From positions 248,001-312,000 of the forward strand of contig CAMAFY010000001.1 of NCBI GenBank assembly GCA_945833885.1: a stretch of 64,000 nt of DNA, written 5' to 3'. The notes under the pieces are model-generated. The model worked only from the letters and a program-made list of their open reading frames with translations, searched no databases and was not told the DNA's origin. Origin of the DNA: an uncultured Bacteroidales bacterium. Its GTDB lineage: Bacteria > Bacteroidota > Bacteroidia > Bacteroidales > Bacteroidaceae. This document shows positions 15,372 through 47,810 of the stretch, in pieces (position 1 is the stretch's first letter; each line of letters opens with the position of its first letter). Made by a program: the position numbers and the translations under genes.

Positions 15372-15452
15372 AATGTGCCGCGTTTTTCCACAAAAACTTC
15401 CGCACTTTGCGCGTTGAAGTTCCGATGTTTTCGATGTAAAGTCCAAATGTTT
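15372..15452. repeat. 22-bp-period intergenic array D (four 15-bp cores)
   Basis: Cores at 15372-15386 (AATGTGCCGCGTTTT), 15394-15408 (AAACTTCCGCACTTT), 15416-15430 (GAAGTTCCGATGTTT) and 15438-15452 (AAAGTCCAAATGTTT). Starts are exactly 22 bases apart with unrelated 7-base spacers. Same design as the arrays near 23.0, 31.8 and 46.3 kb. It lies between two convergent genes, before their shared terminator. Confidence 0.8.
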
Positions 15453-15607: not shown

Positions 15608-15648
15608 AAAATCCTCCGACATCGTTATTGGGAATGTCGGAGGATTTT
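15608..15648. terminator. Bidirectional terminator
   Basis: AAAATCCTCCGACAT (15608-15622) is a perfect inverted copy of 15634-15648, with an 11-base loop and A/T runs on both sides. It separates the oxidoreductase from the convergent GH25-MORN gene and can end both transcripts. Confidence 0.85.
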
Positions 15649-23007: not shown

Positions 23008-23088
23008 AAAGTACGGCATTTTCGCTTTGAAAGTGCGGAAGTTTATGCTAAAAAGTGCTGTTGTTTACAAGGAAAACATCCGCACTTT
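23008..23088. repeat. 22-bp-period intergenic array C (four 15-bp cores)
   Basis: Cores at 23008-23022 (AAAGTACGGCATTTT), 23030-23044 (AAAGTGCGGAAGTTT), 23052-23066 (AAAGTGCTGTTGTTT) and 23074-23088 (AAACATCCGCACTTT). Exact 22-base period; spacers CGCTTTG, ATGCTAA and ACAAGGA are unrelated. Member of the same family as arrays A, B and D. Confidence 0.85.
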
Positions 23089-31710: not shown

Positions 31711-31757
31711 GCTTATCTGGCATGAATATAATTTAAAAGCCAGTGTTTTTTAGAAAA

Positions 31758-31838
31758 AAAACAACGTTCTTTCCCACGTAAAGTGCCGTATTTTATGATA
31801 AAAACATCCGATGTTTTTCAATCAAAGTGCAACATTTT
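31758..31838. repeat. 22-bp-period intergenic array B (four 15-bp cores, degenerate fifth)
   Basis: Cores at 31758-31772 (AAAACAACGTTCTTT, diverged), 31780-31794 (AAAGTGCCGTATTTT), 31802-31816 (AAACATCCGATGTTT, a perfect palindrome around its centre) and 31824-31838 (AAAGTGCAACATTTT); a fifth, decayed unit may begin at 31846. Exact 22-base period. It lies in the 1057-base gap between the etf operon and susB; the remainder, up to the promoter boxes, is A/T-rich and I see nothing else in it. Confidence 0.8.
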
Positions 31839-44820: not shown

Positions 44821-45999
44821 ATGAAACTCAAGTCATTCATCGTTTCCGCATTGGCCCTCTTTGCCTTCGGACTTCAGGCCAATGCAGAGGAAATAACCAA
44901 GACCTATCCCTACGGATTTATTGGTCTTCAGGGCGGTGCTCAAATGGTCACCAACGGCTATGCCCGCGAGTGGAGTTTTGGTGATGTCCTCACCGGCACC
45001 GGCTCCGTTTACGGAGGAGTACAATGGACTCCCGTCCTTGGCACCCGTCTTCACCTCAACGCATGGAAGGGTCGCGAAGGATATAAGGCCGTGGGAACCT
45101 ACTATGATTTCAATTACGGCACCCTTACGGCCGACCTCATGGTCAACCTTGTCTCCATGTTTAACCATCGCGACAACAATGTTTTCAACCTTTACCTCAT
45201 TGGTGGTTTCGGCGGAAACAAAGTTTGGGGTGATGAATGGAACGAAGTTACCGTTCTTGGAACCAATGGTAAGACTGTAAATGCATATCAGGAAAACCTT
45301 CGACTCACGGAATATCAGACCTCATCCATGGCTATTCCCGAGGGACACATGGCTCCGGAGGCCAACCGTATCGCACACACCGAGAAACTGGGTCTGATGC
45401 TCGACTTCGCACTTTCCGATCATTGGAACATCAACCTCGAAGCAGATGCCCTTCATCATGGACATCATGACTATCTTCCCGAGGTGAATATGACCAAGGA
45501 TTGGCAGGTAACCTGTCAACTCGGTCTGACCTATCGTTTCGGAAAAACCAAGAAAGTTGTTCCCGCTACCGTGGTAGAGCCTGCCCGTACTCCTGAGCCT
45601 GTGGCAGAACCCACTCCCGCGCCTGCTCCCGAACCTGCGCCTGCTCCTGTCGTAGTTGACGAGGTTAAGCCCTGCATTCAGAATGTTTTCTTCCTCATCA
45701 ATCGTTATGACATCCGTCCTGAAGAGATGCTTAAGGTTGAAGAATGCGTAGCATTCCTTAACAAGTATCCTGAAGCTAAGATTGACATCACCGGTTATGC
45801 TGACAAGAACACCGGTAATGCCACCATCAACCTCCGTCTCTCCAAGCAGCGTGTAAATGCTGTTTACGATGCACTCATCCAAAGAGGCATTGCCGCAGAG
45901 CGCATCAATAAGGACTTTAAGGGCGATACTGTACAGCCTTTCGGCAACGACGAGGCCAACTATCGCAAGAACCGTTGTACCATCTGTGTGGCTGAATAA
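44821..45999 (+). CDS. OmpA family outer-membrane protein
   Basis: 392 aa. Signal peptide (FIVSALALFAFGLQANA). An N-terminal beta-barrel-like region (about 25-235: YPYGFIGLQGGAQMVTNGY ... VTCQLGLTYRF) is joined by a Pro/Glu/Ala-rich linker (about 250-280) to a C-terminal OmpA domain (NVFFLINRYDIRPEEM, DITGYADKNTGNATINLRLS). It should link the outer membrane to peptidoglycan. C-biased codons suggest a highly expressed protein. Followed by a terminator (46066-46110). Confidence 0.9.
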   Translation: MKLKSFIVSALALFAFGLQANAEEITKTYPYGFIGLQGGAQMVTNGYAREWSFGDVLTGTGSVYGGVQWTPVLGTRLHLNAWKGREGYKAVGTYYDFNYGTLTADLMVNLVSMFNHRDNNVFNLYLIGGFGGNKVWGDEWNEVTVLGTNGKTVNAYQENLRLTEYQTSSMAIPEGHMAPEANRIAHTEKLGLMLDFALSDHWNINLEADALHHGHHDYLPEVNMTKDWQVTCQLGLTYRFGKTKKVVPATVVEPARTPEPVAEPTPAPAPEPAPAPVVVDEVKPCIQNVFFLINRYDIRPEEMLKVEECVAFLNKYPEAKIDITGYADKNTGNATINLRLSKQRVNAVYDALIQRGIAAERINKDFKGDTVQPFGNDEANYRKNRCTICVAE

Positions 46000-46312: not shown

Positions 46313-46393
46313 AAACAACGGAACTTTGTGAGGTAAACATCGGCACTTTCCAGCATAAAGTGCGGCACTTTTTGAAGCAAACATCGGCACTTT
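46313..46393. repeat. 22-bp-period intergenic array A (four 15-bp cores)
   Basis: Cores at 46313-46327 (AAACAACGGAACTTT), 46335-46349 (AAACATCGGCACTTT), 46357-46371 (AAAGTGCGGCACTTT) and 46379-46393 (AAACATCGGCACTTT). Exact 22-base period; spacers GTGAGGT, CCAGCAT and TTGAAGC share nothing. The third core is a perfect palindrome about its central base. The 875-base gap 46000-46874 also holds the OmpA terminator and the nanA promoter box; elsewhere it shows nothing recognisable. Confidence 0.9.
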
Positions 46394-46874: not shown

Positions 46875-47810
46875 ATGGAAAAGATACAAGGTCTCATTGA
46901 TGCCCCCTTCACTCCTTTTCATGCCGATGGCAGTTTGAATCTCGATCCAATTCCCGCCTACGCAGCCCTTCTTGCCCGTAATGGTCTTCAGGGAGTCTTT
47001 ATCAATGGTTCGTCTGGTGAAGGATATATGCTCACGGAAGACGAGCGTCGTCAACTTGCAGAATGCTGGATAAAGGCAGCAAATGCCGTCCAGACGCGCG
47101 AGGGAAAGCCCTTTAAGGTTATTGTTCATGTGGGCAGTACCAGTGTTGCCACAAGCCATCGTCTTGCACAACACGCTCAGGAAATCGGAGCGTGGGGAAT
47201 TGGTGCCATGGCAACCCCGTTCCCCAAGATAGGAAGTGTGGAGCAACTCTGCCAATACTGCGAGGCCATTGCTTCCGGAGCACCCGAACTTCCGTTCTAT
47301 TACTACCATATCCCAGCCTTCAATGGCGCATTTCTCTCGATGTATGATTTCCTTCAGGCTGCCGATGGTCGCATTCCTAACCTCGCAGGTATCAAATATA
47401 CCTTCGAAAGTCTCTATGAATACAATCGTTGCCGCCGTTATAAGGACGGAAAATTCGATATGCTCCATGGACAGGATGAGACCATTCTCCCTTGTCTTGC
47501 CATGGGTGGCGCTCAAGGTGGCATAGGTGGCACAACAAACTACAATGGTCGCGCACTCGTTGGTATCATTGATGCCTGGAAAGAAGGCGACCTTGAGCGT
47601 GCAAGAGAACTGCAGAATTTCAGTCAGGATGTAATTGATGTCATCTGCCGTTTCCGTGGAAACATCGTGGGCGGCAAGCGTATCATGAAACTTATCGGCC
47701 TTGACCTGGGTCCTAATCGTGTACCGTTTATGACAGTTACCGATGCTGAGGAAGAGGAAATGCGCCGACAACTTGATGCCATCGGCTTCTTCGAGCGCTG
47801 CAACCGGTAG
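46875..47810 (+). CDS. nanA: N-acetylneuraminate lyase
   Basis: 311 aa DHDPS/NAL-family TIM barrel. Schiff-base Lys174 in LAGIKYT, the catalytic Tyr in FYYYHIP (about 143), and the substrate-binding GSSGEG loop at 45-50 are present. LDAPFTPF-type start (LIDAPFTPFHADGS) is typical of sialic-acid lyases. Cleaves sialic acid to N-acetylmannosamine and pyruvate in the cytoplasm. No nanE or sialic acid transporter is adjacent; nagA 20 kb away would serve the later steps. Confidence 0.9.
   Translation: MEKIQGLIDAPFTPFHADGSLNLDPIPAYAALLARNGLQGVFINGSSGEGYMLTEDERRQLAECWIKAANAVQTREGKPFKVIVHVGSTSVATSHRLAQHAQEIGAWGIGAMATPFPKIGSVEQLCQYCEAIASGAPELPFYYYHIPAFNGAFLSMYDFLQAADGRIPNLAGIKYTFESLYEYNRCRRYKDGKFDMLHGQDETILPCLAMGGAQGGIGGTTNYNGRALVGIIDAWKEGDLERARELQNFSQDVIDVICRFRGNIVGGKRIMKLIGLDLGPNRVPFMTVTDAEEEEMRRQLDAIGFFERCNR

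Follow-up and report, generated by a model that had tools for sequence, protein, structure and literature searches.

Results

Palindrome arrays in the window

The window, that is, the whole 64-kb stretch of DNA analysed here, corresponds to bases 248,001-312,000 of contig C1 of genome G000 (3.11 Mb in 89 contigs, 87% complete). Between an OmpA-family gene (44821..45999, + strand), a neighbour and not part of the array, and a DHDPS-family gene (46875..47810, + strand), whose called start is 481 bp away, lies array A (46313..46393, no strand assigned, as for all arrays). It consists of four 15-bp cores starting at 46313, 46335, 46357 and 46379. As the initial annotation had reported, one of them (46357..46371) is the perfect 15-bp palindrome AAAGTGCGGCACTTT, and two others are identical to each other (AAACATCGGCACTTT). 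The other three arrays that had been described for the window were also found. The array at 15372..15452 (cores at 15372, 15394, 15416 and 15438, the outermost two being the most degenerate) lies between convergent genes of the GFO_IDH_MocA and Glyco_hydro_25 families, and that at 23008..23088 (cores at 23008, 23030, 23052 and 23074) is flanked by genes of the tRNA_m1G_MT and DUF4468 families. The array at 31758..31838 (cores at 31758, 31780, 31802 and 31824) has a possible weaker fifth core starting at 31736. The cores at 15438 and 31824 are degenerate in that the G of the C.G centre is lost. With up to two mismatches, the two-core search pattern AAANNNCNGNNNTTT-N7-AAANNNCNGNNNTTT had 12 matches in the window, whereas 100 shuffles that preserved the dinucleotide composition gave 0.10 matches on average and never more than 1. 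The Pasteurellaceae uptake sequence AAGTGCGGT had no match within the window. A perfect 15-bp inverted repeat at 15608-15648, whose arms are 11 bp apart and which ends in a run of T, is probably an ordinary terminator.

Array anatomy in the genome

The exact two-core pattern had 289 matches in the whole of G000, and the reversed pattern had 2. A position weight matrix, trained on stricter arrays from the same sequence that was searched, detected 100 arrays in 1,190,909 bases, with one match for the reversed control. Four cores per array, as claimed from the window, is the mode of this set before merging (59 of 100 arrays), followed by five and three units (13 each), six (7), two (6) and eight (2). 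The exact 22-bp period holds genome-wide as well: strong cores are paired at a distance of 22 bp in 279 cases, at 23 bp in 2, and at 21 and 24 bp in one each.

Within the core, the AAA and TTT arms are conserved at 83-98%, C7 and G9 at 98-99%, and the central C or G at 96%, and the inner triplets are drawn from a small set (GTG, GTT, CAT, GTA, ATG, CCT, CTT and CTG). The description of the core as near-palindromic therefore stands for the frame AAA...C.G...TTT but not for the inner triplets, which in four-unit G000 arrays pair within a core only at chance level. The spacers, described as unrelated, are indeed near random, except that they show a weak genome-wide lean to palindromic YYRNYRR, which amounts to no more than 0.19 bit at any position (up to 1.90 in the core), and that adjacent units occasionally carry the same spacer (e.g. 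C1:41857), a sign of tandem duplication. Array scores are bimodal: among 99 four-unit windows of at least 8 bits, 88 reach 48 bits and 11 lie between (control, 1), which indicates that decayed arrays are scarce. Weak outer half-units continue the pattern on either side of the arrays. The A/T content of arrays is periodic at about 11 bp, and their predicted curvature, calculated from wedge values, is 60.5 degrees, compared with 31.5 degrees in mononucleotide shuffles.

Among the matches listed, G000 arrays are about 71-89% alike over 37-105 bp, the likeness being confined to the array, and no shared flanks were seen at G000 arrays. The pairs with 100% identity in the same set are an assembly duplicate between contigs C19 and C20 and one split array. 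There the two contigs, which were probably duplicated in the assembly or derive from strain variants, agree completely over 681 bp around one array (at about 5.9 kb). Near some arrays on C6, C15, C17 and C21 there is another, distinct repeat, whose copies match over 84-247 bp at 73-85% identity.

Placement along the chromosome

After dropping the duplicate contig C19 and merging splits less than 200 bp apart, 97 arrays remained in 1.17 Mb. The claim that none lies inside a gene is correct for the window and nearly so for the genome, where 4 of the 97 overlap a called ORF, three of these being very weak calls. The 77 within-contig gaps between arrays have a mean of 10,985 bp, a coefficient of variation (CV) of 0.41 and a minimum of 3,003 bp. 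When arrays were placed at random, one per intergenic region and weighted by length, the CV was 0.84+-0.09, none of 5,000 trials was as even as G000, and 15.8% of gaps were shorter than 3 kb, a class that is empty among the 77 observed. By extrapolation, the whole chromosome would carry about 260 sites, 3-24 kb apart, most of them well inside large intergenic regions.

Arrays avoid gene starts: only 2 of 76 neighbouring starts are within 100 bp of an array, as compared with 25.6% under the null; these distances are approximate because genes were called with a purpose-written script. Of 100 neighbouring gene 3' ends, 17 are within 100 bp (null 26.4%), and the median distance is 252 bp. With five arrays at contig ends and the four overlapping ORFs left out, 54 of the other 88 lie between tandem, 23 between convergent and 11 between divergent genes (null 68, 14 and 18%, respectively). 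The avoidance of gene starts speaks against the suggestion that the arrays are ordinary regulatory operators, and hundreds of dispersed copies are not what is expected of replication iterons. Nor does any particular gene recur next to the arrays: 165 of the 187 genes that flank G000 arrays qualified for a Pfam scan, and among the 120 proteins scanned no family was found in more than two, with no transposase family among the 25 commonest. Arrays placed at the start of a gene for a DNA-binding protein were looked for as well, but only two arrays are within 100 bp of a called start, and by our own reading these adjoin genes for GAF-like and glycosyltransferase-like proteins.

Distribution and letters in relatives

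Exact matches were found in 6 of 58 genomes of the genus of G000, and G000 itself (289) was followed by G076 with only 6 (control, 3). In a search of the genome collection with a three-core pattern, 66 of the 70 stretches among the matches listed were in records labelled Bacteroidota. Three-core matches in L057, L067, L073 and L029 come from records that carry the labels Parabeggiatoa, Eisenbergiella, Phormidesmis and Bacillota, and the units of L067 and L073 are nearly identical, resembling simple minisatellites. Copy number was very uneven among genomes: Prevotella sp. RGIG9954 (G082) had 147 matches and none for the reversed control, G090 had 53 and 0, and G086 had 43 and 0. Each of the other 30 genomes had 2-21 matches; the reversed control reached 6 in G087 (19/6) and G099 (5/6). 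In a sample of 120 genomes from the genus of G090, eight matched including G090, among them G192 (38/3). A mirrored frame, TTTNNNGNCNNNAAA, again at a 22-bp pitch, was found in G211 (116/0) and G146 (16/0), and Bacteroides rodentium (G099) carries both frames (six mirrored, five direct); in its cultured strain JCM 16496, arrays were seen in L054, L056 and L272. G211 (L273), which belongs to the genus of G090, has many near-identical mirrored-frame TTTCCTGCCGAGAAA arrays, several of them near contig starts, implying that the repeat may break assemblies.

The words of the arrays are lineage-specific on a common frame (G076, G082, G086, G090 and G192), and the 22-bp pitch, which might have varied freely in related species, is constant in these five as in the mirrored-frame genomes. 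Lag self-similarity in G090 gave 242 windows at lag 22, 3 at lag 23 and none at other lags from 17 to 28. Of the genus members compared by their Lrp proteins, G076 is the nearest to G000 (89% and 73% identity, the next being 72% and 61%), a ranking that does not amount to a phylogeny. When 178 kb of G076 were searched without regard to letters, 13 intergenic peaks appeared at lag 22, as compared with 7 at lag 21 and 0-1 at other lags. Ten of the 13 are arrays built from the palindrome AARTGNNCAYTT, as a rule with four copies when counted by eye, and have 10-bp G- or C-rich spacers; one of the others has different letters, one has the AAANNNCNGNNNTTT frame, and one is apparently unrelated. With at most one mismatch, the AARTGNNCAYTT-type pattern had 43 matches in G076 and none in any of the 57 other members of the genus, among them G000. 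Thus, two relatives have the same geometry with different letters. Synteny at array loci was not found in the stretches compared (G086 with G090, G076 with G000), which were not syntenic or were too diverged. Contig C16 of G086 and contig C4 of G090 have dispersed repeats of about 80-130 bp in common, of which one pair overlaps arrays and the others do not. The viral contig collection, which may omit records very near G000, gave a single match, with three cores at a 22-bp pitch (L235:1027-1085, IMGVR_UViG_3300036943_000304), and a phage origin of the arrays was therefore rejected.

Four-unit arrays also predominate elsewhere (18 of 22 arrays in G086, 18 of 24 in G090, 13 of 16 in G192 and 9 of 13 in G082). 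Spacing as even as observed was reached in 22 of 2,000 trials for G192, which is significant, and in 214, 350 and 783 trials for G090, G082 and G086, respectively. Of the 57 gene 3' ends next to arrays in G086, G090, G082 and G192, 37 are no more than 100 bp away (nulls 0.20-0.48), unlike in G000, and hence the siting rule differs.

Candidate binding proteins

A conserved DNA-binding protein whose presence tracks with the arrays, as proposed by the initial annotation, was sought in the Lrp/AsnC, HU-HIG and ParB families, and none of them tracks. The copy number of HU-HIG does not follow the arrays (4 in G000 and 3 in G192, but 30 each in the array-less G080 and G117), and HU-HIG was rejected as the binder. 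It was encoded by 3 of 60 scanned neighbours of low-copy arrays (68 flanking genes), two of which were placed in L068 and L032, where the gene lies about 120 bp from the array; G107 and G091 have 50 and 39 HU-HIG matches, respectively. ParB/Noc was rejected likewise: 22 of 26 genomes, including G000, G082, G086, G090 and G192, have one PF02195 match, and second, weak matches occur in G179 and G085 but also in the array-less G117 and G006, so that the extras do not follow the arrays.

Discussion

The original proposal of palindromic sites that recur on the same DNA face, in the manner of operators or of targets for a nucleoid-organising protein, is supported in this part, and so are the enrichment over controls and the constant pitch. 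We consider it about an even chance that the arrays are docking sites of a putative oligomeric DNA-wrapping protein, whose likely role would be in chromosome organisation. One array would be one docking site, on which four dimers would sit next to each other along the same DNA face. Each dimer would read one 15-bp palindrome of the form AAA NNN C N G NNN TTT, and the oligomer would bend or wrap the roughly 80-90 bp of array DNA. Its likely role would be to mark, anchor or constrain topological segments rather than to control single genes. It is the constraint on the cores without constraint on the spacers, together with the two-turn pitch, the four-unit mode, the avoidance of gene starts and the even spread in G000, that leads us to read each array as a site for four dimers. 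There is a precedent for such a mechanism in Lrp-type octamers, for which two reports describe four to five 15-bp semipalindromes at regular intervals of two helical turns, with the DNA wrapped (PMC10201364, PMC2995911).

Several observations count against a docking site. None of the three protein families tracks the arrays, evenness is significant in only one of the four other genomes, and arrays in those four sit close to gene 3' ends, unlike in G000. In the Prevotella clade, the inverted doublets and strong hairpins described below are superfluous for a simple protein-site model. Moreover, since 52 of the 58 genus genomes have no exact match, any role must be dispensable. More tentatively, and with somewhat less than an even chance in our estimate, the arrays may belong to a chromosome-wide addressing or architecture system of Bacteroidota, in which palindrome tetrads on a two-turn ruler, away from promoters, are read by a fast-evolving oligomeric protein and the letters are recoded between close relatives. 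If this is true, the ruler would be conserved and each species would label its whole chromosome with a private word.

The main rival, strongest in the Prevotella clade, is a mobile repeat family (REPIN/BIME- or MITE-like) of non-autonomous elements copied by a transposase. We hold this to be a serious possibility but distinctly the less probable one. The initial annotation had mentioned the remains of an element, which may be correct in view of G192 and G118. In these two genomes, arrays sit in a longer repeat with inverted-looking ends TGTAAYRC..YTGATANYCAACGC (by eye), and near-identical copies occur as three pairs: 97% over 121 bp (L222, 8285/14834), 89% over 122 bp (L220, 5554/9508) and 92% over 109 bp (L224, 8627/14677). 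The arrays of G076 also seem, by eye, to have flanks in common, and the distribution among genomes is patchy. In addition, units 1-2 and 3-4 of G086 and G090 are inverted copies of each other (L1=R2, z 3.1; L3=R4, z 4.2), as in the REPIN doublets described in PMC3116915. PF01797, the Y1/RAYT transposase profile, was matched in seven array-bearing genomes (G000 with one partial-profile match, G086, G103, G109, G110, G118 and G179), but not in the array-bearing G090, G192, G102, G087 and G085 or in the low-copy G104; in G082 and G076, no match passed the cut-off. With matches in seven array genomes and none in five others, RAYT does not track the arrays and was rejected as their partner. Also against mobility, the likeness among listed G000 arrays is only about 71-89% and ends with the array, decayed copies are few, transposases are missing from the 25 commonest flanking families, and the viral contigs gave only one match. 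Under mobility, the divergence outside cores, the intact cores and the even spacing of G000 would all need explaining, the last perhaps by target immunity or by loss of close copies. If the arrays are mobile, they would be an unusual repeat family whose copies stay several kilobases apart. Docking sites and mobile elements are compatible, however, if a mobile repeat has been co-opted.

Another explanation is that the arrays act at the RNA level, as tandem hairpins serving as bidirectional terminators or mRNA 3'-end structures. Arrays of G192/G118 are predicted to fold strongly (mean z -7.8, n=20), and this agrees with such a role, as do the proximity to gene 3' ends in the four other genomes and the convergent placement of 12 of the 30 low-copy arrays with both neighbours called. 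In G000, on the other hand, the fold bias is weaker (z -2.4 and -2.1 for 40 four-unit arrays, mononucleotide shuffles), as it is in G082 (z -2.7, n=8), the inner triplets show no pairing and the median distance to a 3' end is 252 bp. Many arrays, moreover, have divergent neighbours and thus no gene 3' end beside them (11 of 24 in G090, 6 of 22 in G086, 5 of 12 in G082 and 11 of 88 in G000). RNA-level elements thus appear improbable.

We judge it very unlikely that the arrays are strong DNA gyrase sites comparable to E. coli BIME-2. The gyrase motif (PMC6379681) is flanked by 10.75-bp periodic GC content within about 130 bp, which is reminiscent of the A/T periodicity, the raised predicted curvature and the weak outer units of our arrays. 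Fixed C7 and G9 and letters that switch between relatives would, however, be unexpected for degenerate indirect readout.

Least probable of all is that the arrays are operators of Lrp/AsnC (feast/famine) octamers, with four dimers on four sites: the published geometry fits, but PF01037 was unmatched in the array-bearing G085 and G087 (metagenome-assembled genomes that may be incomplete), was matched one to three times in each of the other 18 genomes, array-rich and array-poor alike, and the recognition-helix residues of both Lrp paralogs are identical in G000 and G076 despite the different letters, one paralog being nearly invariant across the set and the other varying mildly and not with the letters, while the arrays keep away from gene starts.

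Putative docking sites for an oligomeric protein thus remain our preferred reading, and their place among known systems can be stated as follows. Like REP/BIME and REPIN with RAYT, the arrays are many short, clustered extragenic palindromes, and in the Prevotella clade they apparently form inverted doublets, by statistics in G086 and G090 and by inspection and folding in G192/G118. Unlike REP and REPIN, they have a fixed 22-bp pitch, a four-unit mode and, in G000, even spacing. The units of G000 and G082 are direct rather than inverted: in G000 the unit words correlate as direct repeats (e.g. L2=L3, z 3.7), and in G082 nearly all units of an array are in one orientation. A RAYT gene, expected of a REPIN system in genomes with the repeats, was not matched in five array genomes. 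The BrickBuilt MITE of Porphyromonas gingivalis resembles the arrays in its Bacteroidales host, its intergenic location, its tandem units of nearly the same length and, in some lineages, the presence of flanking segments. According to PMC4596501, however, BrickBuilt has 23-nt units without spacers, a variable and often long copy number, 19 loci and IS5-family-like terminal repeats; 22-nt tandem repeats of P. gingivalis W83 are cited there as well. Our arrays have a 22-nt pitch, 7-bp spacers and a four-unit mode, with no shared flanks seen in G000, and the segments beside the arrays of G192/G118 and G076 do not look like the published ends of BrickBuilt.

The likeness to Lrp/AsnC operators, about four 15-bp semipalindromes at two helical turns, is real. 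The published operators control particular promoters, whereas the arrays number in the hundreds, lie off gene starts and are untracked by Lrp/AsnC, which is neither matched in every array genome nor altered in its recognition helix between G000 and G076, whose letters differ. Noc/ParB, SlmA and MatP also have dispersed chromosomal palindromes, but as single sites and not as tetrads, and an extra ParB-family paralog does not characterize the array genomes. In open PubMed Central titles and abstract openings, none among the matches listed describes 22-bp four-palindrome arrays. The nearest known systems are BrickBuilt, the 22-nt repeats of P. gingivalis W83, REP/BIME and REPINs, and since the arrays differ from BrickBuilt and the REP and REPIN elements in the defining features that were compared, we class them as new within the dispersed extragenic palindromic repeats. 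To our knowledge, the chromosome organisation of Bacteroidota, a dominant phylum of the gut, is poorly understood, and the arrays provide ready-made bait for the putative binding protein and thus a concrete handle on it. Compared with the known systems, a few hundred arrays of typically four palindromes two helix turns apart look like a previously undescribed means of marking or organising a chromosome.
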